Shown piece by piece: positions 4,067 to 34,169 of a DNA stretch of 34,169 nucleotides; positions within the stretch are counted from its first letter, which is position 1; each line of letters begins with the position of its first letter. Under the pieces are notes generated by a model. The model was not told where the DNA came from. It was given only the letters and a program-made list of their open reading frames with translations, and ran no database searches. A program made the translations under genes and the position numbers. Source of the stretch: an uncultured Bacilli bacterium (GTDB lineage: Bacteria; Bacillota_I; Bacilli_A; RF39; UBA660); the NCBI GenBank assembly GCA_947589195.1, contig CANPZX010000009.1, forward strand, positions 1-34,169. The letters run 5' to 3'.

Positions 4067-4906
4067 TTATTTATTATCTATATCAGAAAAATAAAGTTGT
4101 TTAATTCTTTCTAACGAGTCTTTAATGTATTGACAACTAATTTTATATTGATCAAATACAATATTAAATCCCTCATCATCGTTACATACAAAATTCCAAT
4201 AATTATAGCCGATAAGTAACTCTTCTTCTGAAAAATATTGTTGGACTCTTTCTTGTTTCCATTCGTTACCTTCACCAAATTTGTTATAAGCAGTTCCTAA
4301 AAATATACTGATTTCTTCATCTGTTCCAATAATTTTATTTTTTAACAAAAAATATTCTTGTAGTAATTCTGTTTTTTCAGCTTTAGATTTTTTGTTATCT
4401 AAATCTCCTCCTGCTTTTAATTCTATAATATAATGTTCCTTCTTCTCTGGATTATAAAAGTAATTATCAGTTTCATGATTTTTCATATAACTTTCAACAT
4501 TGCTAGGTTTTACCCATGTAAAAGAGGCATAATCATTAACTGTTGGTTTAACATGTTTATCATATTCAGCAAGCAAATAATCAATATGTTGACTTTGTTG
4601 CGGTAAAAGATAAGAATCTATTCTTCCACGCACTTCGTATGACAACTTAGCAATAGAATTTCCAATATTTTCTAAAACTTTTCCAAAACTTGAATCAAAA
4701 GAGCGTACAAAAGCAGAATAAAACATAAATTCCTTGCCCAATTCTGCCATAAAAACGTTATTCTTCTTTGAATTAATTACACCATTTGGATCATTGACTT
4801 CCAAAGTATATCTTGCTTCAAAACCTTCAGCAAAACTTTTAATGTTGGAATCTACAATAATTTTAATTGCTTCAATTTTTTGCTTTCTTATAATATCATT
4901 ATTCAT
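4067..4906 (-). CDS. Type II restriction endonuclease (possibly TdeIII-like)
   Basis: A 279-aa protein cotranscribed with the adenine methyltransferase upstream. Its ATG overlaps the methylase stop by one base (TAATG), which implies translational coupling so that the methylase is made first. A PD-(D/E)XK centre is visible: D147 in the ETDNYFYN stretch, then IIELKAGGDLDNKKS, giving E162-x-K164. An earlier SAFVRSFDSSFGKVLENIG block resembles the N-terminal part of TdeIII-type endonucleases; that family name is tentative. Length is normal for a type II enzyme and no disruption is seen. The recognition sequence cannot be read from the sequence. Nuclease identity is strong from the motif plus partner gene. 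Confidence 0.8.
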   Translation of the reverse strand: MNNDIIRKQKIEAIKIIVDSNIKSFAEGFEARYTLEVNDPNGVINSKKNNVFMAELGKEFMFYSAFVRSFDSSFGKVLENIGNSIAKLSYEVRGRIDSYLLPQQSQHIDYLLAEYDKHVKPTVNDYASFTWVKPSNVESYMKNHETDNYFYNPEKKEHYIIELKAGGDLDNKKSKAEKTELLQEYFLLKNKIIGTDEEISIFLGTAYNKFGEGNEWKQERVQQYFSEEELLIGYNYWNFVCNDDEGFNIVFDQYKISCQYIKDSLERIKQLYFSDIDNK

Positions 4907-6045
4907 TATTTTCCCCCCATTTCATAATTTGTTATTATAAGATGTTCAACATCTTTGTTATTTCTATTTTGAAAACTAACTATATATTTTTTATCAAAAG
5001 ATTTAATGTAAAAACCACTATTATTATATAAATTGTAAATAAAATCTGTATTTTTGATTATTAACATAAACTTTGCTTTAGTATTTTTTAAAAAATTTGA
5101 TAATCTTATCTGATCATTTTTATTAAAGTCATTTTTTGCATAAGTAGAAAATTCAGTATCATAAGGTGGATCTAAAAAAATGAAATCATTTTCCGTCAAA
5201 TTTATAGTATCACAAAAATTTTCAAAATCCATATTATAAATTTTAGTTTTATTCATATACTTTTTTATATTATCTGAACTTATATAATCGATTTTTTTAT
5301 TAAAATCTTTTCTATTATAACTTATTCCACCATAAGGAACATTAAATTTTCCTTGTTTATTATATCTAAACATTGAGGCATAACAATATTCTCTTATAAA
5401 ATAGAACATTGCTGAAGCAAATTCTTGTGATATATTTAGTTCATTTCTATTATTATATAAATATCTAAAATGCATATAAAATGCACTTTTTAACGATGCT
5501 TCCATATTTTCAAGTATATTATTATCCGTAAGATTTCCTTTATTTTTAGATATTTTACACATACGTCTTATCTTTGATAATAAATTTTTCTGAATTTCAT
5601 GTATAAAATTATCAATTCTTATATTAAAATGATTAGTTAAAACCCCATTGAATTCTTCTGAATGAGATATTACGAATTCACAAATTTTATCATTATATTT
5701 TATTTTTAAATTGTTATCTTCAACTATTTCATTACAATAATTTTTATATAAATCAAGTAATTCTTTTGAATTATTTTCTATTACTTTTTCTAACAAAGAC
5801 CAATTATGAAATAATTCATTAAGTTTTAATAAAAATTCTTTATTTCCACTTTTAATAAAATTGTATAAATTAATTAACTCGTCACATTTATCATTTATAA
5901 TAGAATTAGGTTTGTTTAAAGCAAAATATACTGCTCCACCGCCTACAAATGGTTCAATATAACGTTCAAATTTTTTGGGCAAATTTTCTAATATTATAGG
6001 CAATTCTTTTTCTTTACCACCTGCCCATTTTATGAATGGCTTCAT
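4906..6045 (-). CDS. DNA adenine N6-methyltransferase, D12/Dam class
   Basis: Modifies adenine in the host copy of the site cut by the adjoining endonuclease. Residues 3-11 FIKWAGGKE are the N-terminal D12-class AdoMet motif. [13 protein letters not shown] (31-43) is the FxGxG motif, and [12 protein letters not shown] (291-302) is the catalytic DPPY motif. At 379 aa it is about 100 longer than Dam, with the extra length between motifs as a helical Asn/Lys-rich insert (about 60-200) that may set specificity. I start it at M13 of the track ORF because GAGGTG sits 7 bases before that ATG and the product then begins [11 protein letters not shown]. It has its own promoter and is intact. Confidence 0.92.
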
Positions 6046-6072
6046 TTTTAACACCTCAATTCTATCAATATA

Positions 6073-6101
6073 ATTATACATTTTAATTTAACATTAAGCA
6101 A
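6073..6101 (-). promoter_or_regulatory. Promoter of the restriction-modification operon
   Basis: On the minus strand: TTGCTT, 17 bases, TATAAT, 28 bases before the methylase ATG. With the terminator at 4025-4064 this makes a self-contained expression unit. Confidence 0.75.
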
Positions 6102-6485: not shown

Positions 6486-6629
6486 AAAAGCAAAAATTGC
6501 TTGTAATATAGTAGTTTTACCTGATTAATTTGTCCCAATTAATGGAACAAGTTTATTTTTGTTTATATTCATTTCTATTGGCCCTTCAATAGCTCTATAA
6601 TTTTTAATTATAAATTTATTATATTTCAT
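6453..6629 (-). pseudogene. N-terminal fragment of an OLD-like AAA ATPase
   Basis: Minus-strand translation from the ATG at 6629 starts MKYNKFIIKNYRAIEGPIEM and runs to VPLIGTN-stop-SGKTTILQAIFAFDY. This is the start of an OLD-family or SMC-like ATPase: the K-N-Y-R-A-I strand, then Walker A of the form GxNxSGKTT. A TAA (6525-6527) replaces the residue before SGKTT (usually Glu), and homology stops after about 57 codons. The ATG overlaps the end of the DUF1016 gene by 11 bases, so the two were once an operon. Absent from the ORF track. Dead as a protein. Confidence 0.75.
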
Positions 6630-7638
6630 CTACCTCCAATCTTTTTTCTATATATTCAATACTTGGTAATGTATTTTCTAAAAACTCAGGTATTTCAGAT
6701 AATATTTTATATTCACTTACGCCAATAGGTTTATTTATATCTTTCAAAGCTAATTCTGCAGTTACTTTCTTTTTATCTTTGCAAAGTAATATCCCAAACG
6801 TTGGGTTATCATTTTCATCTTTAACATATTTATCTACAGCGCTTAAATAAAAATTCAATTTACCAGCATATTCTGGTTTAAACTCAGTTGTCTTTAATTC
6901 TATAACTACATAACTTTTAACTTTCAAATTATAAAACAATAAATCAATATAATAATCTTCATTTTCTATTTCTAAATGATATTGTCTTCCCACAAACGCA
7001 AATCCGTTACCTAGCTCTAATAATAACTTGGTGATATTAGCAGTTAATTCTCTTTCAATATCAAGTTCTTTAATATCTTTATCAGCATTTATAAAATCAA
7101 AAATATAAGGATCTTTTAGTAATTCTTTAGCTTGTTCATTATTAGGTGTTGGTAAAGTTTCATCAAAATTAGTAGTTTTATTTTCTAAAAGAGCTTGCCT
7201 TTCATATAATTTGAGAGAAATCTGATGAGTTAATATAGAAACAGACCAGCCATTTTCAATTGATTTTTTTGCATACCACATTCTAATTTCCTTATCTTTA
7301 ATTTTATCTAATAATACTTGATTATGGTTCCAAGATAATTTTGCAAGGACTCCTTGCAAAAATTCATCATTATCAAATTCACTAGCAAATTTTTGCATAT
7401 ATCTTAAATTTCTTGCTGACATACCTTTAATTGTAGGAAACTCCATTTTTAAATCTTTTGCTAAAGTATCAATAAAAGATGATCTCCATCTATTATTTTC
7501 AATTAATTTTAAACCGATATTATATTACATTAAAATTAAATCTTTATTAGCATTTTCAACTATTTTATTCCTAGTTGTTATTAGAGTCCTTTTAATATCA
7601 TTTAGTACTTCAAAATATCTATCATTACTATCTAACAT
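6619..7638 (-). pseudogene. DUF1016 (YhcG-type) PD-(D/E)XK nuclease with in-frame stop
   Basis: The full frame begins at an ATG at 7638 preceded by GGAGG and reads MLDSNDRYFEVLNDIKRTLI. A TAA at codon 38 (7525-7527) stops it, and the frame then continues YNIGLKLIENN into the 275-aa ORF of the track. Without the stop the protein would be 339 aa, normal for the family. The N-terminal DUF1016_N helical region (LxxYxNIG, MSARNLRYMQKF) and the C-terminal nuclease core (EDYYIDLLFYN...YVVIELK, D-E-x-K) are otherwise well preserved. A restart at 7446 lacks a clear ribosome binding site, so a truncated nuclease is possible but unlikely. It was paired with the OLD-like ATPase fragment downstream. A sequencing error at one codon is the main alternative. 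Confidence 0.8.
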
Positions 7639-20416: not shown

Positions 20417-20770
20417 CTATTCTGTAAATGTACAAGTTTTTACTTTATTATTATATTGAACTTTAACCGTATAAGTAGTTTCTTTAACTCTTTTATTATT
20501 TCGTGGGTCTTTTAAATTTTCATCAATTAATCCATTAGTTATTAAATCATTCATTGTAATGGTACAACCACTTTGACATCTACTTTTAAAACTATTACTT
20601 TCTGATAAAACACAAGCTGCATCTTGTAATTGTTTTTTAAAGTTGTCAATTGATTTATCTTCTTCTTTCGAAAACATCCCACTCATATTTGAAGCAATAA
20701 CTACACCAATCATCGCCATTAAAGCTATAGTAATAATAAGTTCAATTAAAGTAAATCCTTTATTTTTCAT
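20417..20770 (-). CDS. Type IV pilin-like protein
   Basis: The N-terminus MKNKGFTLIELIITIALMAMIG is a class III prepilin signal: cleavage after G5, methylated F, and E at mature position 5. The 117-aa product has a short globular domain with two Cys pairs (CVLSES...RCQSGC) and a C-terminal Cys. It would need a prepilin peptidase and assembly ATPase encoded elsewhere, for competence pseudopili or a type II-like system. It stands as a single pilin between secG and rnr, 12 bases before rnr, so it is probably cotranscribed with the ribosome-rescue genes. Confidence 0.85.
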   Translation of the reverse strand: MKNKGFTLIELIITIALMAMIGVVIASNMSGMFSKEEDKSIDNFKKQLQDAACVLSESNSFKSRCQSGCTITMNDLITNGLIDENLKDPRNNKRVKETTYTVKVQYNNKVKTCTFTE

Positions 20771-24159: not shown

Positions 24160-25326
24160 TTATTCAACAATTTCAGAAACTACACCAGCACCAACAGTAC
24201 GGCCACCCTCACGAATAGAGAATTTAGTACCATTTTCAAGAGCAACTGGGGCAATTAATTCTACAGTCATATCAACATTATCACCAGGCATAACCATTTC
24301 AACACCTTGAGGTAATTCGATTACACCAGTAACATCAGTAGTTCTAAAGTAGAATTGTGGTCTGTAATTTGAGAAGAATGGAGTATGACGTCCGCCTTCT
24401 TCTTTACTTAAGACATAAACAGAAGCTTTGAATTTATGATGAGGAGTAACACTTCCTGGTTTAGCAAGAACTTGTCCACGTTCAACTTCTTCACGAGCAA
24501 TACCACGTAATAATACACCAGCATTATCTCCAGCTTGAGCATAGTCAAGTGATTTTCTAAACATTTCAATTCCAGTAACAACTGTTTTCTTCGTATCTTT
24601 AAGACCAACGATTTCAACTTCGTCATTTAATTTCAATGTACCACGTTCAACACGACCAGTAACAACTGTACCACGTCCAGAAATTGTAAATACATCTTCA
24701 ATACTCATTAAGAATGGTTTTTCGGTATCTCTTACTGGAGAATCAATATAAGAGTCAACTGCAGCCATTAAATCACGAATAGATTGAGCAGCTGCTTCAT
24801 CACCTTCAAGAGCTTTTAATGCACTACCACGAATAACAGGACAATTAGAATCATAATCATATTCTCCTAATAATTCTCTAATTTCCATTTCTACTAAATC
24901 AAGTAATTCTGGATCATCAACTTGATCACATTTATTCATGAATACAACAATTTTAGGTACCCCAACTTGTCTAGATAATAAAATATGTTCTCTAGTTTGA
25001 GGCATTGGACCATCAGCTGCAGATACAACTAAGATTGCACCATCCATTTGGGCAGCACCAGTAATCATGTTTTTAACATAATCGGCATGTCCTGGGCAGT
25101 CTACGTGAGCATAATGACGTTTTTCAGTTTCATACTCAACGTGAGCAGTATTAATTGTAATACCTCTTTCTCTTTCTTCTGGAGCTTTGTCGATATCAGC
25201 ATAATCAACGAAAGTACCAAAGTATTTAGTAATAGCAGCTGTTAATGTTGTTTTACCATGGTCAACATGACCAATTGTACCAATATTAACATGTTCTTTA
25301 GAACGATCAAATTTTTCTTTTGCCAT
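24160..25326 (-). CDS. tuf: Elongation factor Tu
   Basis: Delivers aminoacyl-tRNA to the ribosome. 388 aa, full length (family about 394). G1 GHVDHGKT, G2 [11 protein letters not shown]3 [10 protein letters not shown]4 NKCD, G5 SALKAL, then the two beta-barrel domains, ending [14 protein letters not shown]. It is last in the str operon (rpsL-rpsG-fusA-tuf) and also has its own promoter. AAAGGAG precedes the ATG. Confidence 0.98.
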
Positions 25327-25395: not shown

Positions 25396-27471
25396 TTAGT
25401 TAACGCTGTTTTTCTTAACGATTTCTTCAGCGATTGATTTAGGTACTTCTTCATAGTGGTCAAGTTCCATTACAAAATTACCACGACCTTGAGTATTGGA
25501 ACGCAAACTAGTTGCATAACCAAACATCTCCGCAAGAGGTACCATAGCCATAATTTGTAAAGCATTACCCCGTGATTCTTGACCAAGAGGACGACCTCTA
25601 CGACTAGTTAAGTCACCCATTACATTTCCCATATATTCATCTGGTACAGTAACGGCAACTTTCATAATTGGTTCAAGTAAAACAACTTTACATTTATTTT
25701 TAGCTTCTTTTAAAGCCATAGAAGCAGCAATTTTAAAGGCCATTTCACTTGAATCGACATCATGGTAAGATCCATCAAATAATGTTGCTTTAACATCAAC
25801 CATTGGATATCCCGCTAAAACTCCACCAGCCATCGCTTCTTGTAAACCTTTATCGGTAACCGGAATATATTCACGAGGAACAACTCCTCCAACGATTGCA
25901 TCAACGAATTCATAACCTTTACCAGGATTAGGTTCAAATCTAACCCAAACATGACCATATTGTCCACGTCCACCTGATTGTTTAATATATTTACCTTCAC
26001 ATTCACCAACTTGGGTAACTGTTTCGCGATAAGCAACTTGCGGACGGCCAACATTTACTTCCACATTAAATTCTCGTTTCATCCGATCAATTAAGACATC
26101 TAAATGTAATTCGCCCATACCACTTATAATGGTTTGACCAGTTTCAGCATCAGTTTTATATTTGAATGTTGGGTCTTCTTCTGATAATTTTTGTAAAGCA
26201 ATTCCCATTTTTTCTTGATCAGCTTTACTTTTTGGTTCAACAGCTTCATCAATAACCGGAAGTGGGAATTCCATACCTTTCATAATAACTGGTGATTTTT
26301 CATCACATAATGTATCAGCAGTTGTGGTACTCTTAAGACCAACGGCTGCCGCAATCTCACCACAATAAACTTCCGAAATTTCTTTACGATTATTGGCATG
26401 CATTTGTAAAATACGACCAACTCTCTCTTTTTCACCTTTTGTGGAATTTAAGATATAAGATCCACTAGTTAAATGTCCTGAATAAACTCTAAAGAAAGCC
26501 AGACGACCAACGAATGGATCAGCCATTATTTTGAAAGCTAAAGCGGTAAATGGTTCACTATCACTTGGATGACGTAAAACATCTTCACCAGTTTTTGGGT
26601 TATAGCACTCAATTGCTTCAATATCAGTTGGTGCTGGCATATAATCTAAAACAGCATCTAAAGCTAATTTAACACCCATATTTGATAAGGCACTACCACA
26701 CATTACCGGGAAGAACTCTGCTGCTAAAACACCTTTACGAATAGCAGCTTTGATTTCTGGAATGGAAACTTCTCCACCATCAAGATATTTTTCCATTAAG
26801 GCATCATCAAATTCAGCGGCAGCTTCAATAAGTTCAATTCTCTTAGTTTCAGCTAATTCTTTTAAATCTTCGGGAATCGGAATTTCTTCCGCTTCTTCGT
26901 GTTCTTCACCATTATAATGGTAGGCTTTCATTGCCACCAAATCAATAATTCCATTAAATTCATTTTCTGCCCCAATTGGCCATTGAATTGGTTTATAATT
27001 AACACCTAAACGACTGCCAATAGAATCAAGGGTAAATTGAAAATCGGCTCCCAATTTATCCATTTTATTAGCAAAAATCATTCTTGGAACTTTATATTCT
27101 GTTGCTTGACGCCATACTGTTTCACTTTGCGGTTCAACACCAGCATTAGCATCTAATAAACAAATTGCTCCATCAAGTACTCTTAAAGACCGTTGTACTT
27201 CTACAGTGAAGTCGACGTGCCCCGGAGTATCAATAATATTTAAACGATATCCTTTCCAATGGGCAGTTGTTGCCGCACTGGTAATAGTAATACCTCTTTC
27301 TTTTTCTTGATCCATCCAGTCCATTTGGGATTCTCCATCATGAGTTTCACCAATCTTATGAGTAATACCGGTATGAAATAATACCCGTTCCGTAAAAGTA
27401 GTTTTACCAGCATCAATATGGGCCATAATCCCAATATTTCTTACTTTATCAATTGAAACATCTCTTGCCAT
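25396..27471 (-). CDS. fusA: Elongation factor G
   Basis: The translocation GTPase, 691 aa, full length. G1 [10 protein letters not shown]2 [11 protein letters not shown]3 DTPGHVDF, G4 NKMDK, followed by domains II-V and [17 protein letters not shown]. The track ORF begins six codons early; [12 protein letters not shown] is preferred because TAGGTG lies 8 bases before its ATG. The gap to the rpsG stop is 11 bases. Confidence 0.98.
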
Positions 27472-27482
27472 ATTTTCTGCAC

Positions 27483-27950
27483 CTACCATCTATAATGGGC
27501 AAATGCTTTATTAGCTTCTGCCATTCTATGTGTATCTTCACGTTTTTTAACTGCCCCGCCTGTATTTTGCGCAGCATCCATAAGTTCATTAGCTAAATTA
27601 ACAGCCATTCCTCGACCATTTCTAAGTTTAGCATAATTAACAATCCAACGAAGTGCTAAAGCTTGACTTCTTTCATCGCTTACTTCATTTGGTACTTGGT
27701 AATTTGATCCCCCAACTCGCCGTGATTTAACTTCTAAGGCTGGTTTAACATTCTCTAAAGCGGCATTATAAACTTCCATTGGGTCTTTACCAGTTTTTTC
27801 TTTAATAATATCAAATGCTTCATAAAGAATCTTTTGAGCTGTACCTTTTTTTCCATCTTGCATAATTTGATTAACTAACTTAGTTACCACTTTCGAATTA
27901 TACACTGGATCTGGTAATACATCTCTCTTAATTGCTCTTCTCTTACGCAT
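27483..27950 (-). CDS. rpsG: 30S ribosomal protein S7
   Basis: A 155-aa primary 16S rRNA-binding protein of the small-subunit head. [27 protein letters not shown] and the conserved [25 protein letters not shown] are typical, as is [21 protein letters not shown] at the end. It is often the autoregulator of the str operon. AGGAGG precedes the ATG. Confidence 0.98.
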
Positions 27951-27976: not shown

Positions 27977-28390
27977 TTATTTTTTAGGTTTTTTAGCACC
28001 ATATTTACTACGACCTTGTTGTCTTTTAGCTACTCCTTGAGTATCAAGAGTACCACGTACAATATGATAACGAACACCGATTAAGTCTTTAACCCGGCCA
28101 CCACGTACTAAAACAACACTATGTTCTTGTAAGTTATGTCCTTCACCTGGAATATAAGCATCGATTTCTTTCCCATTAGAAAGTCTTACTCTTGCGTATT
28201 TACGAAGAGCTGAATTCGGTTTCTTAGGGGTTTTGGTACCAACACGAGTACATACGCCTCTTTTTTGTGGGCTATTAAGATCCGTTTGCTTTCTTTCAAG
28301 GGTATTTAAACCAACATTTAAAACTGGGCTCTTACTCTTTCTTGTCTTCTTTTGTCTTTTGTTTCTTACTAATTGATTAATTGTAGACAT
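27977..28390 (-). CDS. rpsL: 30S ribosomal protein S12
   Basis: A 137-aa decoding-centre protein. [31 protein letters not shown] and [32 protein letters not shown] are the hallmark blocks. The Lys in PKKPNS that mutates in streptomycin resistance is wild type. First gene of the str operon; AAGGAGG precedes the ATG. Confidence 0.98.
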
Positions 28391-28445
28391 ATTATCCTCC
28401 TTCCATTAACACACATCCTGGTGTATCAAATATTCTATTAAATCA

Positions 28446-28465
28446 GGTTCTACCTAAGTAGAACC
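28446..28465 (-). promoter_or_regulatory. Hairpin in the rpsL leader
   Basis: GGTTCTAC TTAG GTAGAACC, a perfect 8-bp stem with a 4-base loop in the 5' UTR and no T-run after it, so not a terminator. It may be an S7- or S12-responsive element or a stabiliser. The role is not determined. Confidence 0.5.
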
Positions 28466-28484
28466 AAGGTTTAAAACCACAAAT

Positions 28485-28514
28485 AATATAACACTATCAA
28501 TATATGAAAGTCAA
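28485..28514 (-). promoter_or_regulatory. Promoter of the str operon
   Basis: TTGACT, 18 bases, TATATT on the minus strand, about 95 bases upstream of rpsL. It shows that the operon is not dependent on read-through from an rpoBC operon. Confidence 0.75.
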
Positions 28515-28526
28515 GAATAAAAATTA

Positions 28527-29240
28527 CTAAATAGTGATTTCTAAGTTATCATAAGGAACAATAACATTTTTTAGGTTTAATTTTTCTAATTCATTTCTTG
28601 TATCATCTTCTAAATGACTCACAACGAATTTACACTTAGGGTACTTTGCAGATAAATATTTAATATTATCTATTCCCATATGTTTTCTAGTGCTTTTAAT
28701 AAACATACAATCGCAAAATAAGTAATCACATTCACGAGCCATATATTCTACATTTTTACAGATAGTCGTATCTCCTGTAAAACCAACTTTTCTCATTTTA
28801 TCTTTTAATATATAACCATATGCCGGTTTCATTCCACCATGAAACACTAAATACTTTTTGACTTCATAATTATATATCTTAAATGATGGAGCATAAGTAT
28901 ATTTTAAGTTAATTATTTTATTAACATCTTTCATTGCATTAGGAAAAGCTAGTTTTAATAAACTTTGATTTTTTCTTTTTCCTTCTTTACTACAATATAT
29001 ATGAATATCTTTATTATCAGCTCTGGATTTTAATAAAAAATAAAATGGTATATCAAAATAATGATCACCATGAAAATGCGTAAGCAACACGTGTTTTATA
29101 ACTCCCGGATTAATTCCTTCTCTTAATAAAGCTTTACACATTCCATTAGGCATATCCACTAAAATATCCTCATCAATCATATAAGAAGCACTAGCATATT
29201 TGCTCCACATACTTCCACTGCCCACTACTCGTACTTTCAT
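28527..29240 (-). CDS. Metallo-beta-lactamase fold hydrolase, RNase Z-like
   Basis: A 237-aa MBL-fold protein. H55-x-H57-x-D59-H60 (THFHGDHYFD) binds two metals, a later GDTT supplies the bridging Asp, and VVSHLEDDT supplies the last His. The start KVRVVGSGSMWSKYASASYMI and the FHGGMKPAYGYIL stretch resemble the ElaC/RNase Z-related group, but the tRNase exosite is not evident, so a general phosphodiesterase is possible. It lies downstream of the pilin-like genes behind a terminator. GGAGG precedes the ATG. Confidence 0.82.
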   Translation of the reverse strand: MKVRVVGSGSMWSKYASASYMIDEDILVDMPNGMCKALLREGINPGVIKHVLLTHFHGDHYFDIPFYFLLKSRADNKDIHIYCSKEGKRKNQSLLKLAFPNAMKDVNKIINLKYTYAPSFKIYNYEVKKYLVFHGGMKPAYGYILKDKMRKVGFTGDTTICKNVEYMARECDYLFCDCMFIKSTRKHMGIDNIKYLSAKYPKCKFVVSHLEDDTRNELEKLNLKNVIVPYDNLEITI

Positions 29241-29267
29241 TTTATTGCCTCCTATTTTTAAATTATA

Positions 29268-29290
29268 AAAAACGAGGTAGTTCTCGTTTT
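29268..29290 (-). terminator. Terminator after the pilin-like cassette
   Basis: AAAACGAG AACTAC CTCGTTTT then TT on the minus strand, at the stop of the 111-aa gene. Confidence 0.85.
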
Positions 29291-29624
29291 AATAACCCTT
29301 AGTTTTATAACTATCACAATCTATATAAGCTTTAAAATTGTAATCTTTTACTTCTACATAACCTTCACAAATTTCTTCATTAACTTTAATATCTTCGATA
29401 TAACCATTATTAATCAATAATTCTTTAGAAATGTTTATATTACCTGTACCATCATACAAAGAATAATCATTAACATAATTTTTAGCAATATTTTCTAATT
29501 CTTTTTCTTTATCTTTATAAATTTGTTTTTGTTTTTTATAGAAAAACCCAAATGTGGTTAATGAACCAAAGATAATTAGCATAACAATTCCCCAAACCAA
29601 GGTTAATTTTTGCATTCTTTCCAT
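29289..29624 (-). CDS. Small membrane protein, pseudopilin-like paralogue
   Basis: 111 aa from the ATG at 29624 (MERMQKLTLVWG...), two bases past the stop of the upstream gene. The track's longer start reads back into that gene and lacks support. One transmembrane helix (LVWGIVMLIIFGSLTTFGFFY), a helical Lys/Glu stalk, then a small domain with GYIEDIKVNEEICEGYV and DCDSYKTKGY. The C-x-GY...Y..C..Y.T.GY pattern is shared with the protein upstream, so the two are paralogues with pilin-like topology. There is no prepilin cleavage motif here. It could be a minor pilus or membrane accessory protein. Confidence 0.6.
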   Translation of the reverse strand: MERMQKLTLVWGIVMLIIFGSLTTFGFFYKKQKQIYKDKEKELENIAKNYVNDYSLYDGTGNINISKELLINNGYIEDIKVNEEICEGYVEVKDYNFKAYIDCDSYKTKGY

Positions 29625-29626
29625 AA

Positions 29627-30049
29627 CTACGCCCCGATTCGCCATTCTTGGAATCCTACTGTCATATATTCGCCACATCTAATATAAGCATCACTATTTA
29701 GTTTATTATCTTTCTTCGTAATCAAAGCATATCCATTACAAACAGCACCATTATAGGTAATATCTTTCTCATTTAAATATTTACCATTTTTTAAATTATC
29801 AATAGTAATGGTAATAGTTCCACTACCTATATCTTTATAATTATCTTTCATATATTTTAAACTAGCATTTTCGACATTCTCTTCAATAGATATTGTTGTT
29901 TTGTCTTCTTTTAAACTATCTTTAAATGCTTCTCCTAAAGATTTTGATAATTGTATAATAAAGAAAACGGCTATTAATAAAAAGATTAATAATACTCCAC
30001 ACCACACTAATAATTCTGCTAACCCCCAACCACGATTATCCAATTTCAT
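29627..30049 (-). CDS. Pseudopilin-like membrane protein
   Basis: 140 aa. NRGWGLAELLVWCGVLLIFLLIAVFFI resembles a prepilin N-terminus: Gly before an aromatic, Glu at the expected fifth position, a long hydrophobic helix. GW replaces the usual GF. A coiled stalk and a C-terminal domain follow, with AVCNGYALI and YIRCGEYMTVGF, the same Cys/Gly-Tyr pattern as the next gene. Stop and next start are 2 bases apart, hence one operon. Substrate or assembly partner unknown; no pilus ATPase is in the window. Confidence 0.65.
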   Translation of the reverse strand: MKLDNRGWGLAELLVWCGVLLIFLLIAVFFIIQLSKSLGEAFKDSLKEDKTTISIEENVENASLKYMKDNYKDIGSGTITITIDNLKNGKYLNEKDITYNGAVCNGYALITKKDNKLNSDAYIRCGEYMTVGFQEWRIGA

Positions 30050-30098
30050 GAAATATCACCAACTTAAAAAATTATTATAAACTATCCCAATTTAATTA

Positions 30099-30371
30099 TC
30101 AATTATTGTTTTCGCATTGTCTTTCTTTAATAAAGAAAGGTCCAAACTCGGTAGCATACAAACAAGTGCGATCATATTTAACTACTTTATAACCAAGTCC
30201 CATACAAGTTGATACTGAGCCATCGCTATAATCTTTAACTGTATTGTTTAAGCAAAACATTGGACTTTTACTTTGTCTTACTCTAAAATAATCGGTAAAT
30301 ACCATCACTATCCAACCAAACAGTAAAACTAGTATCAAAATTTTAATAATAAATATTATTTTATTTTTCAT
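30099..30371 (-). CDS. Small single-pass membrane protein, 90 aa
   Basis: An N-terminal helix (IIFIIKILILVLLFGWIVMVF) then a short ectodomain with C40, C56 and C70, containing SDGSVSTCMGLGYKVVKYDR and EFGPFFIKE. I recall similar short proteins in gut Firmicutes, but no function. First gene of the three-gene membrane cassette between rplL and the MBL gene. Confidence 0.6.
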   Translation of the reverse strand: MKNKIIFIIKILILVLLFGWIVMVFTDYFRVRQSKSPMFCLNNTVKDYSDGSVSTCMGLGYKVVKYDRTCLYATEFGPFFIKERQCENNN

Positions 30372-30420
30372 AACTTCACCCTAGTATAAATTATACCTAA
30401 ACTCTTCCATTTTAGCAATA

Positions 30421-30443
30421 AAAAAAGAGTAGATATCTACTCT
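30421..30443 (-). terminator. Terminator after rplL
   Basis: AGAGTAGATATCTACTCT palindrome followed by six T on the minus strand, just beyond the rplL stop. It ends the rplJL transcript where rpoB normally follows. Confidence 0.88.
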
Positions 30444-30445
30444 AA

Positions 30446-30817
30446 TTAAGCAAGTTCTACTTCTGCTCCGGCTTCTTCTAATTGGGCTTTAATTTGCTCT
30501 GCTTCTTCAGCTGGAACGTTTTCTTTAATATTTCCACCATTATCAGCAAGGGCTTTAGCTTCTACAAGACCTAGACCAGTTATTTCTTTTAAGATTTTAA
30601 TAACTTGAATCTTATTTCCTCCAGCACTCTTAAGAACTACATTCTTATTAGCAGGAGCAGCAGCTTCTTCAGCTCCACCAGCAGGTGCAGCCGCAACAGC
30701 TACAACACTAGGATCAATTCCTAATTCATCTTTCATTGCATCAACTAAATCTTTTACTTCAAGAATAGTCATTTCTTTTAAAGCACTAATAAATTCATCT
30801 CTTGTTAATTTTGCCAT
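30446..30817 (-). CDS. rplL: 50S ribosomal protein L7/L12
   Basis: 123 aa, the flexible stalk protein that recruits GTPase factors. An N-terminal dimerisation helix ([22 protein letters not shown]), the Ala/Gly-rich hinge, then the C-terminal domain ([35 protein letters not shown]...). AGGAGG precedes the ATG. Downstream partner of rplJ. Confidence 0.98.
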
Positions 30818-31329: not shown

Positions 31330-31351
31330 TTTCAATCCTCCTTTACTAAAT

Positions 31352-31464
31352 AGAAAAGCCCTTTTTTTCGGAAAAAGAGCTTAATAAAAGTATTAAGATT
31401 TTCCCTCGGTAGGATAATTAAGATTCATAAATCCCCTACTGTCTTTGGTCAAATTGCTTTTCTA
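31352..31464 (-). promoter_or_regulatory. L10 leader with attenuator
   Basis: The 5' UTR of rplJL. CAGTAGGGG...TCCTACCGAGG matches the conserved core of the L10 leader family (Rfam L10_leader), the L10(L12)4 binding site. It is followed by an A/T-rich AGCTCTTTTTCCGAAAAAAAGGGCTTTT stem (31352-31382) that can act as an intrinsic terminator. L10 binding would favour termination. Confidence 0.8.
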
Positions 31465-31470
31465 GGTAGT

Positions 31471-32997: not shown

Positions 32998-34169
32998 TTA
33001 TTTGATTAGGAAGCGGGGACGAACACCAAACAAATTGGATGCGTAATGCGTGCTGGCATAGCCAAGGATGTTGACATAATCAAAGCTCGTAGAGTTGGCG
33101 ACCGCTTTTAACCAATAGTTATAGTTAAAACGTTGATTCCCGTAACTATTAATAAACTCTGGTTTTAGTTGGAAAATAGCATACTGACGATTATCGATTC
33201 CAATATCGTATCCAGATGAACTCAATACTGTTGAACCATAGACATTCACTTCGCTCATTAAATCTAACTTACTATCATACCAAGCCCAGCCAGATGAAGC
33301 ACCACCATTATCACCTGAGCTTACTCCAAATTGATTCGAACGATCTGGGTCCATTTGGTCAGCTAGTAGATTAGTATAGGTAATTACATTATCACCGAAT
33401 ACTGGTTCTATATAATTTTTTAAAATATCAGGCAAAATTTCTTGTTTCATTTTACTTCCCACATAAGCTGCTAGATTACTTCTTGTACCATCTTTAGCTG
33501 GCAATGTTTTATCTTTATAAACAATTCCAGTAGTATTACTTTCATTCATTTTCTCATTTTTAAAGGGTGTTGCAGGTATTATTGTCGCATGATTCTCGGT
33601 TAAATCGGTATACCCTGAATGTAAGTAGTTATTTAAGTCAGCTATTAACCAAGTGACAGTATGATTTTCTCCAGTACTATCTGGTTTAGTTGTTGTAAAG
33701 TAATCTCCGACATAGATATCGTCAAATCTACCACTACTAATCATGTCATATAAACCATTATTATTGTAATATTCAGTTATATCTTTTCCTCGATAAGTAT
33801 TTCTTCTTATACTTACTCCTTCAGATATATATTCATCATACTCTGCTTCTGTTATTCCATTGCTTTCAAATTCTATTGTACATTTTGTATCTTTCTTTAA
33901 ATTATCGATTCTTAAATTCCAAGCATTATAATCCCATGTACCTATTACTTTATTATTACAGGTGACATTAGTTTTATATAAATCTCTTGTAGGTATTTGA
34001 GTAGCATCTTTACCATCTATTTTTATAGCTAATTTTACATCATAACCAAAATCTGGAACTATTCCTTTGATTACGTTATACTCTTTGTCTTCTTGATATA
34101 AGGCATAGGTTCTATAGATTAAAATACCCCCCCCCCAGAACAAGCATTAGCCCTAGAGTTAGGAGGATA
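32998..34169 (-). CDS. Surface protein with DUF6273-like C-terminus, frame broken at poly-G; partial
   Basis: As written, an ORF of 381 aa starts at an unlikely TTG inside the G-run. With nine rather than ten Gs the frame continues upstream as ILLTLGLMLVLGGGILIYR, a membrane anchor or signal peptide running past the window edge. After it come TYALYQEDKEYNVIKGIVPDF, a Cys-bearing domain (NVTCNNKVIG...DTKCTIEF), a middle region with YVGDYFTTTKP...VTWLIADLNNYLH, and a C-terminal NYWLKAVANSTSF...FGVRPRFLIK. That C-terminus is typical of DUF6273-type domains found in surface and phage-like proteins of gut bacteria. It is likely displayed on the cell surface. The 5' end is missing, so no start or promoter can be given. 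Confidence 0.7.
34127..34136. repeat. C10/G10 homopolymer tract in a surface-protein gene
   Basis: Ten consecutive C on the plus strand, striking in such AT-rich DNA. It lies in the coding start of the surface protein, and its length sets the frame: nine opens the gene, ten closes it at a TAG a few codons on. An assembly miscount is the main alternative. Confidence 0.9.

Follow-up and report, generated by a model that had tools for sequence, protein, structure and literature searches.

The rplKAJL and str operons of this uncultured Bacilli bacterium adjoin one another with rpoB and rpoC gone from between them, and the rearrangement behind this order is real and inherited, belongs to a known kind and does not stem from misassembly. 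The window, by which we mean the whole stretch of 34,169 nucleotides that was analyzed, is contig C9 of a MAG of 1.35 Mb (90 contigs, 88.6% complete, 0.9% contamination). On its minus strand, rplK, rplA, an L10 leader, rplJ and rplL are followed by a terminator, by genes here named sm90, pil140 and pil129, by a terminator-like hairpin and an MBL gene, and then by a promoter, a leader, rpsL, rpsG, fusA and tuf (Table 1). The absence of rpoBC between rplL and rpsL, first remarked on in a sequence-only reading of this DNA, is thus confirmed, the interval being taken up by sm90, pil140, pil129 and the MBL hydrolase. For pil129 we adopt the internal ATG at which nearly all orthologues align, 2 bases past the pil140 stop; the ORF as listed is longer, starting at 29678 and encoding 129 aa. 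Elsewhere in the window the ORF list alone gives a Dam-type DNA adenine methylase (4906-6081) with a possible restriction partner after it (4067-4906), both on the minus strand, and a possible nuclease-like gene at 6619-7446.

Table 1. Features of the rplL to rpsL region, in window positions.
Feature	Position	Strand	Basis
L10 leader RNA before rplJ, intact	31343-31466	-	Rfam RF00557, 78.5 bits
rplL (L7/L12), end of rplKAJL	30446-30817	-	ORF and PF00542 match
Intrinsic terminator after rplL	30426-30443	-	perfect palindrome AGAGTAGATATCTACTCT followed by TTTTTTT
Putative sigma-70-type promoter for sm90-pil140-pil129	30390-30418	-	TTGCTA-17-TATAAT, consensus scan only
sm90, 90 aa	30099-30371	-	ORF
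pil140, 140 aa	29627-30049	-	ORF
pil129, 111 aa from conserved start	29289-29624	-	ORF and orthologue alignment
Terminator-like hairpin after pil129	29269-29290	-	scan
MBL-fold hydrolase	28527-29240	-	PF12706, 38.4 bits
rpsL promoter	28485-28514	-	TTGACT-18-TATATT, scan and recurrence in relatives
rpsL (str operon) leader RNA, two hairpins	28388-28483	-	covariation and CM searches
rpsL (S12), str operon start	27977-28390	-	ORF
rpsG, str operon	27483-27950	-	ORF
fusA, str operon	25396-27489	-	ORF
tuf, str operon	24160-25326	-	ORF

The polymerase genes were located elsewhere in the same genome, as one copy each in the order rsmC-rpoB-rpoC on contig C14, and have thus been retained rather than lost; the end of C14 falls within a DUF6273-type gene, some 300 bases upstream of rsmC. 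Comparison of the rplL surroundings from 56 relatives of the same family, themselves MAGs, revealed rplL, then pil140/pil129 genes, then rpsL on one contig in 16 of them, representing 16 species: nine from the genus of the window (G001, G002, G003, G005, G007, G008, G014, G015 and G020) and seven from further genera (G028, G033, G041, G042, G045, G054 and G058), which together with the window makes eight genera. Another 22 of the 56 show the ancestral linkage, with rplL followed by rsmC and/or rpoB, and in the remainder a contig ends near rplL or synteny is lost. In a maximum likelihood tree of RplK+A+J+L, all genomes with the derived order group in a single clade (UFBoot 99) whose 30 tips include none of rpoBC type, one ancestral change being the simplest account, and the displaced rsmC-rpoB-rpoC is retained elsewhere in 19 derived relatives too. 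The MAG is fragmented and DUF6273 repeats lie near several contig ends, including the C14 end upstream of rsmC, as might be expected if assembly or binning had wrongly joined a contig between rplL and rpsL; such an artefact is, however, scarcely conceivable, misassembly, which the sequence-only reading had named as its refutation, being excluded by the recurrence of the same junction in 16 other species and by the phylogenetic coherence of the derived order. A move of rpoBC, put forward initially alongside a rejoining of the block, is upheld. At the new rpoBC site, several genomes share a nearby conserved group comprising an HD-domain hydrolase, an FtsK/SpoIIIE-like gene and an M16-like peptidase pair (names assigned by reading the sequences). 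This neighborhood is only partly common across the derived clade, which points to later moves of the rpoBC block.

The order of events can be read from relatives that keep rpoBC in place. G044, which stands near the derived clade in the tree, carries rplL-rsmC-rpoB-rpoC-pil140-rpsL on a single contig, indicating that the pil140-type gene came to lie upstream of rpsL first and that the exit of rsmC-rpoBC followed. The same placement of a pil140-type gene between rpoC and rpsL occurs in five relatives in all (G022, G023, G030, G036 and G044), while in G034 rpsL follows rpoC directly, with no pilin gene. The idea that a membrane cassette stands in place of rpoBC was accordingly rejected, since pil140-type genes predate the split. 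A related possibility, namely that the cassette is a mobile island whose insertion separated rplL from rpoBC, would fit the other cargo found in the same gap in relatives (DUF6273 genes, a phosphatase and a glycosyltransferase). We nevertheless hold it to be very improbable, because a pil140-type gene already adjoins rpsL where rplL-rsmC-rpoBC is intact (G022, G023 and G044), and because the rplL-rpsL interval showed neither an integrase or transposase nor terminal repeats. We propose instead that in the common ancestor of the genus of the window and its sister genera rsmC-rpoB-rpoC, as a self-contained block, would have left the gap between rplL and the str operon, either by duplication and loss or by excision and insertion, the recombination route being inferred. 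Following this exit rplL would have come to adjoin the former upstream neighbor of rpsL, the pilin-like membrane gene pil140, and within the clade pil140 would then have been duplicated to give pil129, with loss of the prepilin signal, and sm90 would have been added. Most of the derived clade carries pil129, which can be recognized as a duplicate. The gap would have remained a tolerant insertion site, receiving the MBL gene here and the cargo listed above elsewhere. In G009 and G017 the sm90-pil140-pil129 triad adjoins the S10 operon instead of rpsL, showing that the triad persists while its ribosomal neighbors shift. Taken as a whole, the explanation by an ancestral exit of rsmC-rpoBC, with pil140 already in place and with later additions of pil129 and sm90, is in our judgment highly probable; its observed parts are the gene orders, the monophyly, the pre-split order in a relative and, at the level of sequence, the conservation of promoters.

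Transcription signals, assigned throughout as consensus matches, are in keeping with such a move. The strong terminator first described after rplL is borne out in its form, a perfect palindrome running into a T tract (30443-30426), and within this 3.5 kb our scan detected three terminator-like sites where 0.8 would be expected; promoter-like matches in the scan were in total no more numerous than in shuffled sequences. The claim that rpsL has a promoter of its own also stands; relatives from both the ancestral and the derived group have the same boxes in front of rpsL. In the rsmC-rpoB gap an rpoB promoter, TTGACA-17-TAAAAT (11/12), is found in this genome, in derived genomes and in most ancestral ones. 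Preceding rsmC, the derived clade has a TTGACT-17-TATAAT-like box (promoter match 9-11 of 12), where contiguous ancestral genomes have in the rplL-rsmC gap only the rplL tail and a hairpin instead of a promoter. At its new site rsmC would thus be served by a promoter of its own. Judged by these signals, the rplL, rpoB and rpsL units were probably separate transcription units before the split, and with a terminator behind rplL, a promoter for rpoB, and a promoter and leader for rpsL, the move would have been tolerable.

The rpsL leader is itself a structured element. Its first hairpin, P1, covaries, with 19 cells in which both sides are changed, compared with 7.9 in shuffles, and compensatory change in 5/6 pairs, and in the second, P2, the motif ACACCnGG is invariant within the family. 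A covariance model of the leader identifies a single copy in almost all genomes of the family, and in a Bacilli-wide sample, several other families of the class included, 30/30 best CM hits lie directly before rpsL, a result to which the Shine-Dalgarno sequence and start region contained in the model contribute. Searching the rplL-rpsL interval against Rfam 15 with E up to 1 gave no match, so that the rpsL leader is absent from Rfam, and a 2010 study described rpsL leaders as "multiform", with no shared feature (PMC2965389).

The MBL hydrolase noted between rplL and rpsL is present as described and is a patchy accessory gene outside the conserved cassette. Of 60 genomes searched, 6 carry it, counting the present one, and in the others it lies at a different locus; membership of the cassette was rejected because no relative that was read has the gene at this site. 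Like RNase Z/PhnP-type hydrolases, the protein has the MBL fold and an intact metal motif (HFHGDH); unlike them, it falls far below the curated cut-offs (64.9 bits against 292.95 for RNase Z in NCBIfam, and below all equivalog cut-offs) and is patchily distributed.

Pfam, NCBIfam and PDB searches with pil140, pil129 and sm90 returned no named family. The pil140 protein begins with a degenerate prepilin-type signal (NRG/WGLAELL) followed by one hydrophobic helix. Across orthologues the G of the signal is invariant, an aromatic residue at +1 is usual and E5 varies (E, Q, S, K or Y), E5 being present in this genome. In the outer domain Y66, C104, Y107, C125 and T130 are invariant in 19 orthologues, and pil129 carries the same CxGY...C..Y.T pattern, so that the Cys/Gly-Tyr pattern pointed out for the two larger genes is real. 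Their description as paralogues of a small surface system is upheld as far as the paralogy goes (pil140 profile against pil129, 8e-13). Similarly, of the three genes first termed pilin-like, the label suits pil140 with its degenerate signal; it does not suit pil129, a paralogue from which the signal has been lost, nor sm90, a small protein unrelated to the other two with one predicted TM helix and a predicted five-stranded all-beta outer domain. Within the class, the pil140 family is nearly confined to this taxonomic family, almost all of whose genomes have it. Orthologues of sm90 are found in 20/22 genomes of the genus and in several other genera, with strong representation in the genus itself and in a few of its sister genera. 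An AlphaFold model of pil140 (pLDDT 85, pTM 0.60) gave no match with E<1 when compared with the solved structures of the PDB using Foldseek, which makes pil140 a candidate pilin only; for the sm90 model the same comparison gave nothing significant. A near full-length match of the pil140 profile was obtained with large proteins opening with the canonical signal KKGFTLIELL or KKGFTLAELL (1.2e-9 and 4.1e-6, Z=2000), and the profile also matches the first 130 residues of a protein of about 375 aa (1.5e-15). In related genera, genes near rpoBC encode large proteins in which a pil140-type domain is accompanied by a canonical prepilin signal and by long additional domains (L182, 12124-14880; L135, 11512-13329). 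A canonical pseudopilin (GFTLIEL; TIGR02532, 26.1 bits, above cut-off) is encoded in the window at 20417-20770 on the minus strand, alone between an RNase R-like gene and engB.

Pilus ATPase and prepilin peptidase genes, proposed as a check on the pilin reading, are both present in the genome at other loci: contig C26 encodes a PilB-type ATPase (PF00437) and a prepilin peptidase (PF01478), and further Tad-like ATPases are found on C31, a Tad/Flp locus, and on C5. The protein of about 375 aa with its pil140-type domain resides inside the Tad-like loci of G005, G009 and G014, which also contain an ATPase, two TadB/C-like membrane proteins, and CpaB-like and TadE-like proteins (recognized by reading); here it is encoded on the short contig C84 (L189), with the rest of the Tad-like locus on C5 (L188). 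The Tad-like locus of the family (L188-L192) has a TrbC/VirB2-like small protein alongside the 375-aa protein, and a second sm90 homologue lies on C5 about 9 kb from the Tad-like locus. We infer, with less confidence, that sm90-pil140-pil129 may be transcribed together as a surface module that cooperates with a pilus machine of type IV or Tad type. The alternative that the triad is an independent membrane complex unrelated to pili, for instance a sensor or an envelope assembly factor, is tentatively conceivable as well: no solved pilin was matched, E5 of the signal is not conserved, pil129 and sm90 are without a prepilin signal, and the triad remains beside ribosomal operons despite reshuffling (the S10 operon in G009 and G017). 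The end-to-end profile match of pil140 to canonical prepilin-type proteins and the pil140-type domain inside Tad-like loci argue against it, and the fast divergence of the triad within the genus (36-51% compared with about 75-97% for its ribosomal neighbors) suits a surface part. More specifically, and somewhat doubtfully, the pilus-associated module might be an unnamed family-restricted one, in which a minor-pilin-like pair and a small beta protein form the tip or anchor of the family's Tad-like pilus and were kept beside ribosomal operons through several rearrangements. Compared with type IV pilins and pseudopilins (TIGR02532), pil140 is alike in its NxG-aromatic-x-L signal-like stretch, its single hydrophobic helix and its profile similarity to canonical family members, and differs in having no match to the TIGR02532 prepilin-type N-terminal domain in the NCBIfam search, in its variable E5 and in the lack of a solved-pilin fold match; pil129 differs further in having no signal.

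The DUF6273 surface protein encoded at 32998-34143 of the window (minus strand) is one of at least 32 dispersed copies in this genome (the at least 31 others include L258-L273, L280 and L289). These are 61-82% identical, share a promoter/ribosome-site block upstream and are abundant only in this genus. A C-terminal stretch of about 96 nt has NNC/NNT codons whose first two positions take any of three or four bases, while third positions and the other bases of the stretch change little (mean entropies of 1.61 and 0.24 bits, respectively, a contrast that is partly circular because the positions were picked by inspection). This variable region bears the signature of a diversity-generating retroelement (DGR), and in phages DUF6273 domains are already known to serve as DGR targets (PMC11792537). 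A DGR is a proposal only, as motif screens of about 862 kb of own-genome sequence, partly overlapping and amounting to at most about 64% of the genome, yielded neither template nor reverse transcriptase; viral contigs, scanned with a pattern for the variable region, contained no match. Two copies, L258 and L269, have different N termini and almost the same variable region, so gene conversion is also indicated. With seven DGR targets reported in one Treponema genome (PMC4891356), the DUF6273 set would potentially be an unusually large number of such targets for one genome.

Returning to the gene order, the window offers a clean example of how a highly conserved operon cluster breaks up, with the intruder arriving first, the self-contained polymerase unit exiting second and both states preserved on living branches. 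It suggests that co-transcription of rpoBC with rplJL is not required, and the triad draws attention to surface proteins of gut bacteria that have yet to be catalogued. Brandis (PMC8046335) described a two-step course for the same operon cluster, gene insertion followed by disconnection, including event F37, a break at rplL-rsmC in Lactobacillaceae. Our case is a new instance of this pattern in another lineage: the ancestral concatenation persists in 22 relatives, insertion preceded separation (G044, G022, G023 and G030), the displaced genes are retained on C14 and the change falls on one branch (support 99). As in F37, the break is at the rplL/rsmC joint, a small gene set entered between the operons before full disconnection, and the genes were kept elsewhere. 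Unlike in F37, the whole of rsmC-rpoBC left as one unit, the str operon stayed with rplKAJL, and the first intruder, of pil140 type, entered between rpoC and rpsL rather than between rplL and rsmC.
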